Part shown: positions 3,098 to 39,018 of the stretch, one piece after another | How the letters are laid out: each line of letters opens with the position of its first letter | Numbering within the stretch: the first letter of the stretch is position 1 | Assembly (NCBI RefSeq): GCF_946404925.1 | Contig: NZ_CAMJFM010000005.1 | Location: 44,885 to 108,884 of the forward strand | Reading direction: 5' to 3' | Source of the DNA: an uncultured Prevotella sp. | GTDB lineage: Bacteria; Bacteroidota; Bacteroidia; Bacteroidales; Bacteroidaceae | DNA: 64,000 nucleotides | Notes under the pieces: model-generated | Told to the model about the DNA's origin: nothing | Database searches by the model: none | The model's input: only the letters and a program-made list of their open reading frames with translations | Program-made: the position numbers and the translations under genes

Positions 3098-5035
3098 CTA
3101 CTTCTTTGTGGATTTTACTTTTTTCAGCTCGGCATCGGTTAGGACGGTGACGCGGCGATTGCTTGGGTCGGCTATCACCTCATTCACTATCTCAGTTACC
3201 TGCTGCTTCAGCTCGTCGATAAACTGCTGTGGGTCGTATTTTTGGTGCTCTATGTCGCGGAGCTTTTTCTCCCAGATACCTGTGAGCTCACAACTCTTCA
3301 ACAGCTCCTCGCGTATCAGGTCAATCAGTTCGATACCTGTAGGAGTAGCTATCAGTCGCTTGCGTTCGCGCTTGATGTAGTGGCGCTTAAACAGCGTCTC
3401 GATGATGCCAGCACGACTTGATGGGCGACCTATGCCGTTCTCCTTCATAGCCGCACGTAGCGTCTCATCCTCAACAAACTTACCTGCTGTTTCCATCGCA
3501 CGAAGCAGCGAGGCCTCATTATAATAAGGTGGGGGAGTAGTCCACTTCTCAGTCAGCGTTGGCTTGTGCTCACCACTTTCGCCCTTCACGAAAGTTGGTA
3601 GCGTGCGCTCCTCGTCTTTCTCAGAGGTGAGAGGTGAGGGGTTAGAGGTGAGAGATATGTCTTCTTCTTCCTCTTTCTGCTTATCTTTGCCCTGAACCAC
3701 GCGCCAACCCGGATCAAGTATTTCCTTACCAGTAACCTTAAATTCTACGACTTCATCTGCAGCAGAGTTTTCTCTAGCTTCTAGCTTCTCACCTCTCACC
3801 TCTCCTAAAACAGTTGTTGTCGAAAACTTACAATCGGGCAGGAACACGGCGATAAAACGACGGGCCACCAAGTCGAACACCTTCTGCTCGGCATCGTTCA
3901 GGTTCTGTGGTATCACACCCGTAGGGATGATGGCGTGGTGATCGGTCACCTTCGATGTATCGAACACGCGTTTGCTCTTCTTCAGTGCCTTGCCGCCTAT
4001 GGGCTTGATGAGTTCAGCATAAGGTGCCACACCAGCAAACTTGGTCTGATATAGTCCGTTCAGCGTCTGCGGACATTTGGGGTAGATGTCATCACTCAGA
4101 TACTGCGTGTCAACACGAGGGTAGGTGGTGTACTTCTTCTCGTAGAGACTCTGAATCAGGTTCAGCGTCATCTCGGCCGAGTAGCCGTATTTGCGGTTGC
4201 AGTCTACCTGCAGCGATGTCAGGTCGTACAGCTGTGGTGGCTGCTCCTTACCCTCTTTCTTCTCCACCTTGGTCACCGTGAATGGCTTGCCCTCGATGGT
4301 CTCGAACGCCTTTTCGCCTTCCTCTTTCGAGGTAAACTTACCCTTGGTGGCGGTAAAGGTGGTGTCGCGATATACCGTGGCCAGCACCCAGTAGGGCTCT
4401 GGCTTAAAGTTCTCAATTTCCTTCTGGCGATTCACAATGAGCGCCAGGGTTGGCGTCTGTACACGTCCTATTGATAACACTTGGCGGTTCTGTCCGTATT
4501 TCAGCGTGTAGAGTCGTGTGGCGTTCATGCCTAACAGCCAGTCGCCAATAGCGCGACTCAATCCCGCCAGATACAGCGGCTGGTAATCCTGCTGATCCTT
4601 GAGTTGGGCAAATCCTTCGCGAATGGCCTCGTCTGTCATCGACGATATCCACAATCGCTTCACCGGACAAGTGGCCTGAGCCTTCTGCATCACCCATCGC
4701 TGTATCAGTTCTCCCTCTTGTCCCGCGTCACCGCAGTTCACGATGCTATCGGCCTTTTGCATCAGGCCCTCAATAATCTTAAACTGCTTCTCAATGCCCT
4801 TATCGTTAATCAGTTTGATGCCAAATCGTGGTGGAATCATAGGCAACTGGGTTAGCGCCCATGGTTTCCATGCTTGAGTATAATCGCCGGGCTCCTTCAG
4901 CGTACACAGATGTCCGAAGGTCCACGTCACTTGGTATCCGTTGCCCTCCATATATCCATCGTGCGAGCTGTTAGCCCCTAAGATTCTTGCTATATCCCGA
5001 GCCACACTCGGTTTCTCTGCTATACAGACTATCAT
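3098..5035 (-). CDS. topB: DNA topoisomerase III (TopB-type)
   Basis: MIVCIAEKPSVARDIARILGA, GDAGQEGELIQRW, SIGRVQTPTLALIV, TYPRVDTQYLS, ENGIGRPSSRAGIIETLFKRHYI motifs. Confidence 0.95.
   Translation of the reverse strand: MIVCIAEKPSVARDIARILGANSSHDGYMEGNGYQVTWTFGHLCTLKEPGDYTQAWKPWALTQLPMIPPRFGIKLINDKGIEKQFKIIEGLMQKADSIVNCGDAGQEGELIQRWVMQKAQATCPVKRLWISSMTDEAIREGFAQLKDQQDYQPLYLAGLSRAIGDWLLGMNATRLYTLKYGQNRQVLSIGRVQTPTLALIVNRQKEIENFKPEPYWVLATVYRDTTFTATKGKFTSKEEGEKAFETIEGKPFTVTKVEKKEGKEQPPQLYDLTSLQVDCNRKYGYSAEMTLNLIQSLYEKKYTTYPRVDTQYLSDDIYPKCPQTLNGLYQTKFAGVAPYAELIKPIGGKALKKSKRVFDTSKVTDHHAIIPTGVIPQNLNDAEQKVFDLVARRFIAVFLPDCKFSTTTVLGEVRGEKLEARENSAADEVVEFKVTGKEILDPGWRVVQGKDKQKEEEEDISLTSNPSPLTSEKDEERTLPTFVKGESGEHKPTLTEKWTTPPPYYNEASLLRAMETAGKFVEDETLRAAMKENGIGRPSSRAGIIETLFKRHYIKRERKRLIATPTGIELIDLIREELLKSCELTGIWEKKLRDIEHQKYDPQQFIDELKQQVTEIVNEVIADPSNRRVTVLTDAELKKVKSTKK
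3623..3657. repeat. In-frame heptamer repeat array inside topB (array 1)
   Basis: agaggtg agaggtg aggggtt agaggtg agagata on + strand. Confidence 0.75.
3771..3806. repeat. In-frame heptamer repeat array inside topB (array 2, opposite orientation)
   Basis: ctctagc ttctagc ttctcac ctctcac ctctcct; reverse complement shares 23 bp agaggtgagaggtgagaagctag with the 38984 array. Confidence 0.75.
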
Positions 5036-10989: not shown

Positions 10990-11032
10990 GTATTTTTAGC
11001 GTAAAAAGTTGCGGTGCGTGGGTATTTTTTTG

Positions 11033-11040
11033 TATCTTTG
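11033..11040 (+). promoter_or_regulatory. -7 box TATCTTTG immediately upstream of the DUF2207 gene
   Basis: TATCTTTG at 11033-11040, ATG at 11050. Confidence 0.65.
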
Positions 11041-11049
11041 CACGCTGGA

Positions 11050-12687
11050 ATGAGACCTAAACTTTTAATAACTATATTACTGCTTGCGGCCATCAATGTG
11101 TTTGGCTATCCGCAGTTGCACGATCTGGATATACGGGTGGTGCTGAGTAGAAATGGTGATGCGCGCATTACGGAAACGCGACAGATGACCATCGATAGCG
11201 AGGGAACAGAGTGCTATATCGGTTTGGCTAACCTTGGCCCCAGCGTGGTGAAGGATCTGGAGGTGACCGACGAGACGGGCGCTAAATTCCTGAACGTAGA
11301 TTGGGACATCAACGAGAGTCGCAGTTGGAAAACACTGAAATGCGGCATAGTAAAGACCTCTAAGGGCTACGAGATATGCTGGGGCCTTGGCGACAGCGGC
11401 GAGCGAACGTATACGACCACCTATACGCTGACGAGCATGGTGTATCGCTATGCCGACGGTGTGGACGGCATGCGCCACGTGTTCCTCGACCAAGAGGTAT
11501 CGCCCAAGCCTGGGCACGCCAAGGTGACTATCGTAGGCGAGGATACAACGATGGTGTTCAATCCGGATAGCTGCGGCATCTGGGGATTCAGATTCCATGG
11601 CGACTTGTGGTTTGAGAATGGCGCCATGGTGGCTGAAACCACCGAGGCCATGAGCCGCGATGCTGCGATATACTTTATGGCGCGATTCCAGTCAGGGCTG
11701 TTTGAACCTACCAACTGGGAAGACGACAGCTTTGAAAACAAGATGAACGAAGCCTTCCAGGGGAGCGACTATGATGCCGACGAGGTGGATTGGAGCGACC
11801 CTGAGACCATACTGGGCGTGATCGTGGTGATGTTTACCTTTATAGCGCCAATCATAGGCGCCATCTGGGCTGCTATCTACAAGTGGCGTGCACGTCGCCG
11901 CATTAACAAGGACCTGTTGTGGTATCGCGACATACCGCTGGACGGCAATCTGCAGGAGGCTAACAACATGCTGAACGCCTATAAATGGGGTAATGCCGAC
12001 TACAACAATCTGCTATCAGCTTGCATACTGAAGCTGATAGACATGGGCGCCATCAAGATAGAGACACACCCCAACATGAAGGGCAAGTTGGAGCCTAACT
12101 TCACGATTTACGCTCTGCCAAACAAGGACAAACAACCAGCACTGATACGCCAGATGTACAACATATTCCTGCAAGCTGCGGGTGGCGACAAGGTGCTGGA
12201 ACCTAAGGAACTGAAGCAGTATATGAGGAGCAGCTTCAACTCGAAGATAACGGATGCGTTCGTGAGCGCGCTGCATACACAGACCTCGATATCGAAATTC
12301 AAGAATCGCGAGGACGAGGTGCGACAGGTGTTCGGATTGAAGAAATACCTGAAGGAGTTTACGCTGATGGACGAACGAGGCGTGGACGAGGTGAAGCTGT
12401 GGAAGGACTATATGATCTACGCCACGCTGTTTGGCATAGCCGATCAGGTGATACGCGACATGAAGAAGATAAACCCAGAATACTTTAATATGGACCAGGT
12501 GGCCGGACAGATGGCCAACGACATCACGCTGCCCACCATCTATTCGGTGATGCATAGCGGCACGGCACGTGCGGCTGCAAACAAGGCAGCACGCGAGAGC
12601 AGAGCCCGTGGCGGAGGCGGACACTCGTCGTTCCACGGCGGTGGAGGTGGATTCCACGGTGGTGGCGGCGGAGGAGGCGTTCGCTGA
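11050..12687 (+). CDS. DUF2207 membrane protein with Gly/His-rich C-terminus
   Basis: MRPKLLITILLLAAINVFG signal; DLDIRVVLSRNGDARITETRQM; tail HSSFHGGGGGFHGGGGGGGVR. The upstream Met of the ORF track (11014) lies in the promoter. Confidence 0.85.
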   Translation: MRPKLLITILLLAAINVFGYPQLHDLDIRVVLSRNGDARITETRQMTIDSEGTECYIGLANLGPSVVKDLEVTDETGAKFLNVDWDINESRSWKTLKCGIVKTSKGYEICWGLGDSGERTYTTTYTLTSMVYRYADGVDGMRHVFLDQEVSPKPGHAKVTIVGEDTTMVFNPDSCGIWGFRFHGDLWFENGAMVAETTEAMSRDAAIYFMARFQSGLFEPTNWEDDSFENKMNEAFQGSDYDADEVDWSDPETILGVIVVMFTFIAPIIGAIWAAIYKWRARRRINKDLLWYRDIPLDGNLQEANNMLNAYKWGNADYNNLLSACILKLIDMGAIKIETHPNMKGKLEPNFTIYALPNKDKQPALIRQMYNIFLQAAGGDKVLEPKELKQYMRSSFNSKITDAFVSALHTQTSISKFKNREDEVRQVFGLKKYLKEFTLMDERGVDEVKLWKDYMIYATLFGIADQVIRDMKKINPEYFNMDQVAGQMANDITLPTIYSVMHSGTARAAANKAARESRARGGGGHSSFHGGGGGFHGGGGGGGVR

Positions 12688-12746
12688 TTTGAGATTTGAG
12701 GTTTGAGATTTGAGGTTTGAGATTTGAGGTTTGAGATTTGAGATAT
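12685..12746. repeat. Heptamer tandem repeat array (gagattt/gaggttt)n
   Basis: gagattt gaggttt gagattt gaggttt gagattt gaggttt gagattt gagatat; spans exactly from the TGA stop to the next ATG. Confidence 0.97.
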
Positions 12747-12954
12747 GAAACTAAAGGTCAACCGGTGTGTAGTAGATATTTTTGAGGGAGCGGAGGTGAG
12801 GCATGCCTTGCTGACGTATCTGGCGCGGAGACGCATGAGCGTGAAGCTGCTGGACCAGCTGGAGGTGACCGACGCGTGGGGACACGAGATAGACCAAGGG
12901 GCCCCGGTGAGTGAGCATAGAGAAATAAGAATAAAATTTAAAGATAGAAAATGA
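12745..12954 (+). CDS. Small conserved-looking protein (69 aa), possibly beta-grasp/ThiS-like
   Basis: MKLKVNRCVVDIFEGAEVRHALLTYLA...PVSEHREIRIKFKDRK; overlaps start of downstream gene. Confidence 0.6.
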   Translation: MKLKVNRCVVDIFEGAEVRHALLTYLARRRMSVKLLDQLEVTDAWGHEIDQGAPVSEHREIRIKFKDRK

Positions 12955-14372
12955 GAAAGATAGTACTTTCGGCCTTGGCTGCGATGATGGCCTTGGCTGT
13001 ATCGGCCCAAGAGCGCCGCGAGCTCCACATACTGAGTGCTAACGATATTCATGCGGCCATCGAGAATATGCCGCGATTGGGCTACGTGGCCGACTCGCTT
13101 CGCGCCCTGTATCCCGACCTGCTGATTCTATCAGGAGGCGACAACCGTTCGGGCGACCCCGTGAACGATATGTTTGAGATACCCGCTTACCCCATGGTGG
13201 CGCTGATGAACCAGATAGGTTTTCAGGCTACGGTAGTGGGCAATCACGAATTTGACTCGAACCAGGACGGATTGGCACGCCTGATAGACCTGGGCGCATT
13301 TGCCACCCTGTGTGCCAACATGGAGCCCGACGCCAAGTGGAACATGCACGTAAAGCCCTACAAGTACTTTGATTGTGGCGGCATCAAGGTGGGCGTGCTG
13401 GGTATTACGGCCCTGGGATCGCTGGGTACACCCGAGAGCCACCCCACACGTGTGAGCGAGATCAAGTTTATGGACCCGCTGGAGACCATCAAGAAATATG
13501 AGTTTATGCGCAAGGAGTGCGACGTGATGCTGCTGCTTTCGCACCTGGGCTACGAGACGGATGTGAAGTTCTCGAAGGAGTTACCCTGGATAGACATCAT
13601 CGTGGGCGGACATAGCCACACCCAGCTGGAGGGCGGCGAGATGCACAACGGCATACTCATCACCCAGAACATGAAGAGCTTGCCCTATGCCACACACTCT
13701 ACATTGGTGCTCGAGGGCAACAAGATAGTAGAGAAGAAGGCCGAGAAAATAGCCATAGCCGGCGTGAAGCGCGAGAACAAGGTGCTGCAGGAGCTGGTGC
13801 GCTACTTCTCGGAGAATCCTGCTTTTAAGCGCGTGTTGGCCGTGGCCGAGACACCATTCTCTACCCGCGAGGAATTAGGCAACATGGTGGTAGATGCCTA
13901 CCGCACCGAGGGCAAGGCCGACGTGAGTTTCCAGAATGCTGGTGGCGTGCGCATGGACTACGTGCCAGCTGGCGAGATGACCGTGGGCGACGTGCTGAAG
14001 ATGGACCCATTCCAGAACGCACTGGTAGAGGCTAACATCACGGGTAAGGAACTGGCCGAGATGCTGATATCGTGCTACGAACACGACAAGCACCGCTTCC
14101 CATACGTGAGCGGATTTAAGTGCGATGTGACCTTCGATCCTGCTACCAATCAGATCAAGAAGCTGGTGCTGCTGGACGATAACGGCAAGAAGCTGAACCT
14201 GAAGAAGACCTACCGACTGGTGGCCAACAGCTATGCCGTGGCCGTAAGCCCCACCAACCGCAAGGATCAGGGCCGCAACCTCACCATGACATCGCCTGAG
14301 ACCATCAAGAACTACCTGGAGCATCAGGGCAAGGTGAGCTACCAGGGCACAAGCAGAGTGAACATCAAATAA
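12951..14372 (+). CDS. Secreted 5'-nucleotidase / metallophosphatase (UshA-like), copy 1
   Basis: ILSANDIHAAIENMPRLGY, LILSGGDNRSGDP, VVGNHEFD, VDIIVGGHSHTQL; 5'-nucleotidase C domain VSFQNAGGVRMD. Confidence 0.92.
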   Translation: MRKIVLSALAAMMALAVSAQERRELHILSANDIHAAIENMPRLGYVADSLRALYPDLLILSGGDNRSGDPVNDMFEIPAYPMVALMNQIGFQATVVGNHEFDSNQDGLARLIDLGAFATLCANMEPDAKWNMHVKPYKYFDCGGIKVGVLGITALGSLGTPESHPTRVSEIKFMDPLETIKKYEFMRKECDVMLLLSHLGYETDVKFSKELPWIDIIVGGHSHTQLEGGEMHNGILITQNMKSLPYATHSTLVLEGNKIVEKKAEKIAIAGVKRENKVLQELVRYFSENPAFKRVLAVAETPFSTREELGNMVVDAYRTEGKADVSFQNAGGVRMDYVPAGEMTVGDVLKMDPFQNALVEANITGKELAEMLISCYEHDKHRFPYVSGFKCDVTFDPATNQIKKLVLLDDNGKKLNLKKTYRLVANSYAVAVSPTNRKDQGRNLTMTSPETIKNYLEHQGKVSYQGTSRVNIK

Positions 14373-20988: not shown

Positions 20989-21957
20989 ATGAGCAAGAGG
21001 ATGATAACGATATTAGGGCCAACGGCTTCGGGCAAAACGCCCGTAGCCGCCCATTTGGCCGCCCAGATCGGTGGAGAAATCATCTCCGCCGACTCGCGCC
21101 AAGTATATCGCCGCATGGACTTGGGAACAGGAAAAGACTTGGCCGATTATAGATTAAATATTAAAAATGAAACATTCTTGGACAAGCCAAGCGGCAAAGC
21201 CGAGCGAAATATTCGTTATCATCTTATTGACATTTGCGAACCTGGAACAAAATATAATCTGTTTCAGTATCAGCAGGACTTTTTCGATGCCTATCAAGAC
21301 ATACAGAGTAGGGGAGCAGTACCCATTCTGTGTGGCGGAACGGGCCTTTATATCGAGGCCGTGCTCAAGGGCTACAAGCTCTCGCCCGTGCCTCAGAACC
21401 AAGCACTCCGTGATAGCTTAGAGGGCAAGTCGCTCCCTGAGCTCACCAAGATGCTTGAAGACCTCAAGGCCAAGACGGGCACGAATATGCACAACACCAC
21501 CGATGTTGACTCGTGCCAACGCGCCATCCGCGCCATCGAGATCGAGACGTATAATCTCGAAAACCCCGTGCCGCGTCGCGAGTTGCCGCCCGTCGATTCG
21601 CTCATCATCGGTATCGACATCGACCGCGAGTTGCGTCGTGAAAAAATCACCCGCCGCCTCAAGGCCCGACTTGACGAGGGAATGGTCGACGAAGTGCGCC
21701 ATTTGCTCGACGAAGGCATCGCGCCCGAAGACCTGATTTACTACGGATTAGAGTATAAATTCTTGACAGAATACATTACCGGACAGCTCACTTACGACGA
21801 GATGTTCAGTCGCCTCGAAATAGCCATTCATCAGTTTGCCAAGCGCCAGATGACGTGGTTCCGCGGCATGGAGCGCCGTGGCTTCACCATCCATTGGATT
21901 GACGCCACCCTACCCATGGAGGCGAAGATAAATGAAATCTTAAAGCTCTATGTTTAA
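20989..21957 (+). CDS. miaA: tRNA dimethylallyltransferase
   Basis: ITILGPTASGKT, EIISADSRQVYRRMDLGTGK, YHLIDICEPG, PILCGGTGLYIEAVL, KRQMTWFRG. Confidence 0.94.
   Translation: MSKRMITILGPTASGKTPVAAHLAAQIGGEIISADSRQVYRRMDLGTGKDLADYRLNIKNETFLDKPSGKAERNIRYHLIDICEPGTKYNLFQYQQDFFDAYQDIQSRGAVPILCGGTGLYIEAVLKGYKLSPVPQNQALRDSLEGKSLPELTKMLEDLKAKTGTNMHNTTDVDSCQRAIRAIEIETYNLENPVPRRELPPVDSLIIGIDIDRELRREKITRRLKARLDEGMVDEVRHLLDEGIAPEDLIYYGLEYKFLTEYITGQLTYDEMFSRLEIAIHQFAKRQMTWFRGMERRGFTIHWIDATLPMEAKINEILKLYV
21145..21215. repeat. In-frame heptamer/hairpin insertion inside miaA
   Basis: gattata gattaaa tattaaa aatgaaa cattctt followed by ttggacaagccaa and gcggcaaagccg mini-hairpins; encodes YRLNIKNETFLDKPSGKAER between GKDLAD and YHLIDI. 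Confidence 0.6.
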
Positions 21958-21978
21958 TGTTTAATGTTTAATATATAC
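21951..21978. repeat. Heptamer tandem repeat array (tgtttaa)3
   Basis: tgtttaa tgtttaa tgtttaa tatatac; the first unit contains the miaA stop codon. Confidence 0.9.
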
Positions 21979-25035: not shown

Positions 25036-26307
25036 ATGAAAGTATTAATGTTTGGATGGGAGTATCCTCCTCACGTATTCGGCGGTCTTGCCACTGCCAA
25101 CTATGGTATCTCTGAGGGCCTCAAGGCTCAGGGCGATATCGAGACGGTGCTTTGCTTGCCTCACCCCTTTGGCGATGAGAGTCAGCATGCGTGCCGCATT
25201 GTGGCTATGAATGCAGTACCTATTGCCTATCGCGATGTAAGCTACGACTATGTTAAGCAGCGTGTGGGCAACATCATGGATCCTGATTACTATTTCAAGC
25301 TCCGTGAGCATATCTATGCCGACTTCAACTATATGAACGTTAACGACCTCGGTGCCATGGAGTTTGCGGGTGGTTATCCCGGCAATCTGCACGAGGAGAT
25401 TAATAATTACTCTATCATTGCAGGTCAGGTGGCCCGTGCCGAGGAGTTCGACATCATCCACGCCCACGATTGGCTCACCTTCCCCGCTGGCATCCACGCC
25501 AAGCAGGTTAGCGGCAAGCCTCTGTGCATCCATGTACACGCCACCGACTTCGACCGCTCGCGTGGTAAAGTTAACCCCACCGTTTACTCTATCGAGAAGA
25601 ACGGTATGGATTGGGCCGATTGCATCATGTGTGTATCCGAGTTGACCCGCCAGACGGTCATCAACCAGTATCATCAGGATCCACGCAAGTGCTTCACCGT
25701 CCACAATGCCGTTTATCCCCTGCCACAGGAGTATCAAGACATTCCTCGCCCCGACCATACGGGCAAGGAGAAGGTGGTTACCTTCCTGGGTCGTATCACC
25801 ATGCAGAAGGGTCCCGAGTACTTTGTCGAGGCCGCTACCATGGTGCTCCACCGCACCCGCAATGTTCGCTTCTGTATGGCAGGTTCGGGCGATATGATGG
25901 ACGCCATGATCCAGCTGGCTGCCGAGCGTGGCATTGCTGATAGGTTCCACTTCCCGGGCTTTATGCGCGGCAAGCAGGTTTACGAGTGCCTCAAGGCCAG
26001 CGATGTATATGTTATGCCTTCAGTGAGCGAGCCGTTCGGTATCTCGCCCCTCGAGGCCATGCAGTGTGGCACGCCGTCCATCATCTCTAAGCAGAGTGGT
26101 TGCGCCGAGATTCTCGACAACTGTATCAAGGTTGATTATTGGGACATCCACGCTCTGGCCGATGCCATCTACTCTATCTGTCACAACGAGTCGCTCTTCA
26201 ACTACCTCAAGGACGAGGGCAAGCGCGAGGTCGACCAGATTACATGGGAGAAGGTGGGCGCCTGGATCCGCACACTCTACCGCCGCACTCTGGGATGGGA
26301 AGATTAA
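25036..26307 (+). CDS. GT4-type glycosyltransferase (glycogen synthase-like)
   Basis: MFGWEYPPHVFGGLATANYG; IIHAHDWLTFPAG; VVTFLGRITMQKGPEYFVEAA; VMPSVSEPFGISPLEAMQCGTPSI. Confidence 0.92.
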   Translation: MKVLMFGWEYPPHVFGGLATANYGISEGLKAQGDIETVLCLPHPFGDESQHACRIVAMNAVPIAYRDVSYDYVKQRVGNIMDPDYYFKLREHIYADFNYMNVNDLGAMEFAGGYPGNLHEEINNYSIIAGQVARAEEFDIIHAHDWLTFPAGIHAKQVSGKPLCIHVHATDFDRSRGKVNPTVYSIEKNGMDWADCIMCVSELTRQTVINQYHQDPRKCFTVHNAVYPLPQEYQDIPRPDHTGKEKVVTFLGRITMQKGPEYFVEAATMVLHRTRNVRFCMAGSGDMMDAMIQLAAERGIADRFHFPGFMRGKQVYECLKASDVYVMPSVSEPFGISPLEAMQCGTPSIISKQSGCAEILDNCIKVDYWDIHALADAIYSICHNESLFNYLKDEGKREVDQITWEKVGAWIRTLYRRTLGWED

Positions 26308-26329
26308 ACATTAAACATTAAAGATTAAA
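26302..26329. repeat. Heptamer tandem repeat array ([g/c]attaaa)4
   Basis: gattaaa cattaaa cattaaa gattaaa; TAA stop of the upstream gene lies in unit 1. Confidence 0.92.
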
Positions 26330-34382: not shown

Positions 34383-34552
34383 GGATACAGAATACAGAAT
34401 ACAGTTTTATTGTGTGAGGGTAAAATGCGGCTTAAAATATTATTATATTATATATATTATAATACATATAATATAATAATATTTAATAGTATTGTTTTCT
34501 TCTTAGTGTGTATTAGCTCGCTAAATAAACTGTATTCTGTATTTCTGTATCC
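34383..34552. repeat. MITE-like unit: inverted (aatacag)n heptamer arrays flanking a 19-bp AT palindrome
   Basis: Left ggatacagaatacagaatacagttt (34383-34407); right aaactgtattctgtatttctgtatcc (34527-34552); inner perfect IR 34435-34453 / 34466-34484. Confidence 0.85.
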
Positions 34553-38969: not shown

Positions 38970-38984
38970 GGCCAACTGTTTTTA
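38954..38984 (+). terminator. Intrinsic terminator overlapping the sulP stop codon
   Basis: aaaacagttggc gtaag gccaactgttttt; TAA stop (38967-38969) is in the loop. Confidence 0.85.
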
Positions 38985-39018
38985 GAGGTGAGAGGTGAGA
39001 AGCTAGCTTCTAGCTTCT
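38984..39018. repeat. Heptamer repeat array with palindromic centre
   Basis: agaggtg agaggtg agaagct agcttct agcttct; contains the TAG stop of the minus-strand MBL gene. Confidence 0.85.

Follow-up and report, generated by a model that had tools for sequence, protein, structure and literature searches.

Tandem heptanucleotide arrays in Prevotella appear to be simple-sequence repeats that spread within a genome, turn over at individual sites and are kept where reading frames tolerate them, a reading to which we give a probability of roughly 0.6. The type example lies in the window, by which we mean the whole 64,000-nucleotide stretch of DNA analysed here, taken from a 3.0-Mb draft genome in 82 contigs (G000, the source genome) with rumen Prevotella and Xylanibacter ruminicola as its named relatives. 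Direct reading gives a (TTTGAGR)x8 array on the + strand (12688-12743), between the gene for a DUF2207 membrane protein of 557 aa (11014-12687, + strand; PF20990, E 2.7e-20; PF09972, E 6e-6) and the gene for a 69-aa protein (12745-12954, + strand). The eight 7-bp units and the 14-bp period reported in the preliminary description are both present: R reads A,G,A,G,A,G,A,A, an A/G alternation that gives a 14-bp period (100% matches across 12688-12742) and is broken by the last unit. The accompanying claim, that the array exactly fills the space from stop to start and begins in the stop codon itself, holds in its main part, as the array starts right after the TGA (12685-12687, + strand) and ends one base before the ATG (12745), but the TGA is not an array unit; orthologs stop at the same position. 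Judged by its conservation (54-78% identity in 10 named relatives), the 69-aa reading frame is a real gene. Its neighbor in the window is a 5'-nucleotidase/metallophosphatase gene (12951-14372, + strand), whose ATG overlaps the TGA of the small gene as ATGA. Having neither a palindrome nor terminal inverted repeats, the array is not of the REP/MITE type, and an inverted-pair scan found no inverted partner for it; a minority of other arrays do form inverted pairs.

The further 7-bp arrays that had been placed at 21951, 26302, 38984, 34384/34530 and in topB all proved real on re-reading. At the miaA->dagK (diacylglycerol-kinase) junction, a period-7 array of ATTAAAC on the - strand (21950-21972) supplies the miaA stop, and at the GT4->GH57 junction an ATTAAAS array (26303-26329, + strand) supplies that of GT4. 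An array had also been described as lying inside miaA; the one at 21950-21972 overlaps the miaA stop instead of sitting deep within the gene. At a convergent junction (38984-39018), an AGAGGTG array is succeeded by an AAGCTAG array in the opposite orientation. Two arrays lie in-frame within topB, a - strand gene: AGAGGTG (3623-3654) in one length-variable loop and AGAGGTG plus AAGCTAG (3773-3804) in a second. Both loops vary in length across 29 relatives, and the topB of relative L109 shows the same peptide motif as the array-encoded loop here. Stop-free arrays stand at gene starts elsewhere in the source genome (C4:87091-87120 and C2:134354-134387), and by direct reading of the sequence the arrays near C2:134354 and C4:87091 likely encode the hydrophobic part of putative signal peptides.

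The preliminary description proposed a genome-wide family of period-7 repeats with several unit sequences, and our scans bear this out. Across 2.19 Mb of the source genome and its relatives, a sample made up in part of stretches chosen around arrays, we counted 237 period-7 arrays against 4, 51 and 42 for periods 6, 8 and 9. In 664 kb of the source genome taken largely without regard to repeats, there were 16, 0 and 4 runs of at least 12 matches for periods 7, 6 and 8, and 28, 0 and 11 scored arrays (score >= 12). Arbitrary stretches from 20 other genera of the family gave 1.13, 0 and 0.28 arrays per 100 kb for the same periods, an order like that in the source genome at a lower density. Dinucleotide shuffles of 43.7 kb of intergenic DNA from the source genome yielded 0.0 period-7 arrays, compared with 6 observed. 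Within this strict intergenic subset periods 7, 8 and 9 are equal, with 6 arrays each, so the period-7 excess there holds against chance and against period 6 but does not extend to period 8.

Every genome has its own small set of multiplied units. The main families in the source genome are ATTAAAS, TTTGAGR, AATTRTC and AGAGGTG, along with minor ones, and pairs of arrays with identical units number 127, against 11 expected from letter-shuffled units. A similar excess is seen in four other genomes, which, like part of the source genome, were sampled around TTTGAGR arrays for this comparison. ATTAAAS x3 occurs at 102 places in the source genome and at 0-27 in 29 congeners; GTAAAAAR x3 occurs at 56 places in G330 and at none in nine of 30 genomes; AATGAAG is found at 46 places in G258 and is missing from most other genomes. 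These are counts of match places, with overlapping matches counted repeatedly, and not of arrays; reversed-pattern controls were almost all 0. TTTGAGR x3 is absent from 12 congeners, while 13 further genomes of the family have it, for a total of 14 of 201 genomes and 7 of 30 genera. We considered whether the arrays travel as a mobile element with common flanks, but the flanks of TTTGAGR and ATTAAAS arrays in the source genome are unrelated by eye, save for one paralogous pair (C27/C47). An assembly artefact was also rejected: the one-contig, 99% complete genome G316 has arrays as well (AATGAAG, 6 sites).

Arrays are concentrated between genes, and especially between co-directional ones, as had been predicted. 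Their density is 1.06 per kb in co-directional gaps, 0.56 in convergent gaps, 0.36 in divergent gaps and 0.038 inside genes, so that arrays are 10-28 times denser outside genes than within them; the gene calls behind these figures are longest open reading frames without a trained gene finder, with approximate starts and small genes missed. In an unbiased sample of the source genome, 11 of 32 arrays fell in co-directional gaps, where 1.0 was expected. Counted per junction, the types differ little (0.12, 0.09 and 0.08 arrays for co-directional, convergent and divergent). Co-directional gaps hold 108 of the arrays; 33 of these come within 10 nt of the stop as well as the start, 27 of the stop alone and 15 of the start alone. 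When co-directional gaps measure 15-60 nt, about 18% of them in the source genome and 12% in the relatives contain a 7- or 8-mer array. About a third of all arrays (76/237) lie within genes. Run on these scans, the test that the preliminary description had set for itself, of an excess of period 7 over periods 6 and 8 and a preference for gene junctions, leaves the array idea standing.

At a fixed junction, the arrays change quickly. We compared 32 GT4->GH57 loci (window 26303) in which GT4 is 95-99% identical, and found arrays in 21 of them (13 7-mer, 9 8-mer) with 14 unit types, an occupancy to be set against the 12-18% of short co-directional gaps generally. Most of these gaps measure 28-45 nt, and their mRNA strand usually has almost no C, whatever the unit. 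The DUF2207 junction holds TTTGAGR here, ATTAAAS in L145 and L147, and AATTGAK in L146, and the array is absent from this junction in L138, L139, L141 and L142. The close pairs L240/L244 and L140/L142 have the same arrays, which argues that arrays are not assembly noise. At miaA->dagK, the genes overlap without an array in L138-L140 and in many other loci, whereas elsewhere in the well-supported clade of L138-L140 between one and six ATGTTTA units are interposed and supply the miaA stop. In the tree, the empty-site relatives L138-L140 nest inside this clade, a topology that fits either one array gain followed by a later loss or several gains. Other repeats occur at the same sites: a GC-rich hairpin (CTTGGCAGAGCCAAG..., CTTGCCTTGCAAG...) splits the heptamer array at the DUF2207 junction (L147:5931-5960; L140), and in L233, L252 and L253 inverted repeats (CCCCTCCC / GGGAGGGG) bracket the GT4->GH57 junction, where other species have heptamer arrays.

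Some arrays belong to larger arrangements. In the window, an ATACAGA array (34385-34404, + strand) is the left arm of an inverted pair about an AT-only palindrome, with the right arm at 34530-34550. We observed elements of this kind, about 140-200 bp long with inverted arms of 2-3 tandem 7- or 8-mers around an AT-rich and often palindromic centre, at window 34385-34550, at C4:64923-65065 and C21:29044-29182 in the source genome, and at L140:3081-3267, L148:811-978, L184:3705-3905, L139:2346-2537 and L201:7013-7174. Their arm units include ATACAGA (in the window), ACAGTGCT, CCGCACG, ATATCAG and others, and no partner gene is shared among ten neighbors of the AT-palindrome elements. Inverted heptamer-array pairs, one at each end of a longer intergenic gap, occur in L239 and L256 (both GT4->GH57) and at L088:3164-3294, and are able to form long hairpins; G258 has several inverted pairs about 100-160 bp apart. 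Inverted pairing is not a general design, with 14 inverted and 26 direct period-7 pairs. Arrays of the period-9 unit AATCCGTGT, 26 bp each, are found at four places in the source genome (C1:57483, C1:157678, C2:22266 and C4:48665) and at others too, and arrays of the related AATCCGTAT form inverted pairs at C4:63989/64049 and C21:38395/38438.

We infer that a few 7-mer, less often 8-mer, units are multiplied at many unlinked places in each genome, and that single arrays would gain and lose copies, probably through replication slippage. Since one unit stands at dozens of unlinked places, slippage alone is insufficient, and we assume a copying step without a known agent. The array at a given junction would often be exchanged for one of another unit. 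Selection would then remove arrays that break reading frames, since most units contain stops and repeats of 7 or 8 bp throw the frame out of register. Arrays would persist in co-directional gaps, where they would end up spanning the whole distance between stop and start and often provide the stop codon, and those in genes would persist only at tolerant places (loops, probably signal peptides) and in the orientation that keeps the frame open. With mutation and selection as the simplest account, exact stop-to-start filling in compact strings of genes needs no spacer function.

The preliminary description suggested instead that the arrays could act as universal translation-stop spacers. On this reading they are selected because a stop-bearing repeat of period 7 or 8, set between co-directional genes, halts ribosomes that have strayed or shifted, whichever frame they are in. 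Its arithmetic is sound, as a 7- or 8-bp unit containing a stop closes all frames within three units, and several counts favor it. We considered arrays at co-directional junctions lying at most 7 nt behind a stop that is not itself an array unit, and 20 of these carry stops on the sense strand only, as opposed to 5 on the antisense strand only (binomial p about 0.004), a bias that exceeds what a pure tolerance filter predicts. About 42 arrays, roughly half of those directly behind a stop, supply the gene's stop as a unit of their own; units with stops on both strands are found in both orientations at junctions; and of 87 period-7 arrays behind a stop, all but 3 have a unit with a stop on at least one strand. 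The bias over all arrays is partly mechanical, however, in that a sense-stop array arising in a gene's tail becomes its new end. An excess of G over C on the sense strand also accompanies the stops, with skewed both-stop arrays dividing 19:9, and strand effects tied to transcription could be an alternative source of the bias behind independent stops. Away from stops the preference vanishes, since arrays near an ATG and more than 40 nt from a stop divide 10:10. A seeming antisense excess at 41-150 nt behind stops (19:10) disappeared in the same ATG-anchored count, and is probably due to the right arms of inverted pairs together with arrays that lie where the next gene begins. The spacer idea is further weakened by the share of arrays within genes, where the frame must stay open and the orientation of stop-bearing units is fixed accordingly, and by the many like junctions without an array, including overlapping-gene junctions at which the same gene pairs manage without one. 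We therefore consider a selected stop spacer unlikely as the general explanation. Under the tolerance account the arrays may still bring a weak secondary benefit, given the favored sense-stop orientation directly behind stops: they could serve as back-up stops, or as C-poor leaders for initiation without a Shine-Dalgarno sequence.

Somewhat less probable again is that the arrays are primarily leaders or regulatory elements, either C-poor, AT-rich unstructured leaders that dispense with a Shine-Dalgarno sequence or sites for an RNA-binding protein. Arrays often adjoin an ATG, the GT4->GH57 leaders are nearly C-free in most species regardless of unit, and Bacteroidetes translation depends on mRNA structure and on an A at -3 (PMC6847099). 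However, the variety of units at that single junction fits poorly with a sequence-specific binder, the DUF2207 array of the window folds somewhat better than its own shuffles (z -2.05) rather than worse, and arrays are found within genes and at convergent ends as well. The occupancy of GT4->GH57 far above the average could mean a positive role of some kind at that junction, a point that counts against frame tolerance as the whole account.

Doubtful, and a shade below the leader reading, is a dedicated trans-acting agent that places, exchanges and multiplies genome-specific 7-8-mers at stop/start boundaries, for example a reverse transcriptase or a transposase-like or template-switching activity, by which the spacers would be renewed as a set. 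A phase-variation switch, with the number of copies controlling how the downstream gene is spaced or expressed, is highly improbable: copy number does range from 1 to 6 between species at miaA->dagK (one genome per species), but the neighboring genes are housekeeping or metabolic (miaA, DUF2207, GT4, GH57) and not surface antigens.

If spread and turnover under frame tolerance are correct, the DNA separating co-directional genes would, in this major genus of gut and rumen, be among the fastest-changing parts of the genome, with one short repeat swapped for another while the flanking protein remains 95-99% identical. Such spacers should then not be readily taken for conserved regulatory sites. 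The arrays would also give rise to new stop codons, C-termini and protein loops, and the origin and spread of heptamers, by polymerase slippage or by copying between places, would become testable through strain comparison at named junctions.

Heptamer arrays as such are already known; what seems undescribed is the turnover of units at gene junctions. The literature searched, which included few subscription journals, had no mention of units being exchanged at a fixed junction or of Prevotella genomes having unit sets of their own; such an absence is weak evidence. The short tandemly repeated repetitive (STRR) sequences of heterocystous cyanobacteria are degenerate heptanucleotides in tandem at many places of a genome. 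The Prevotella arrays are likewise degenerate heptanucleotide tandems dispersed over one genome, a likeness in general description.

The arrays also answer to the description of heptanucleotide long simple sequence repeats (LSSRs; Mrazek et al. 2007, as given in MacGregor 2015; PMC4060949), being tandem repeats of a unit of 5-11 nt, longer than chance, with heptamers the commonest length and mostly intergenic (roughly two thirds of those counted here are outside genes). We found no account in those sources of units peculiar to a genome, of arrays filling the gap from stop to start, of their orientation or of the exchange of units at one junction. The preliminary description knew of no formal account for Bacteroidales, which holds in a narrow sense only: Huang and Mrazek 2014 (PMC4060949) tabulated heptamer over-representation for Bacteroidetes (median 7n3 category 0.75), and MacGregor 2015 (PMC4679880) reported TAACTGA arrays in five Bacteroidetes together with the argument from stops in three frames, proposing a role as sites for an RNA-binding protein.

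The TAACTGA repeats, found in Beggiatoaceae, Cyanobacteria and those five Bacteroidetes (PMC4679880), resemble ours in being intergenic heptamer arrays that overlap stops or directly precede starts, with three-frame stops and an orientation that follows the gene. In Prevotella this orientation, which closes all three frames of the mRNA strand, is seen for arrays adjoining a stop codon and not for arrays away from stops. The TAACTGA system uses one unit, and related heptamers are seldom repeated there, whereas none of the main Prevotella units is TAACTGA (TTTGAGR, ATTAAAS, AATTRTC, AGAGGTG and others), each genome has several units that differ by species, 8-mers occur and many arrays lie in genes. 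Alongside these may be set the GGGAATC and GGGGAYT repeats that Rehm et al. 2015 (PMC4692102) described in Xanthomonas and Nostoc, which are genome-specific heptamers, about 90% intergenic, mostly between co-directional genes and different in length among relatives. Those repeats are rich in G, form quadruplexes and mostly stay at the same junctions, while the Prevotella arrays are mostly AT-rich, lack G-tracts and have their units exchanged.
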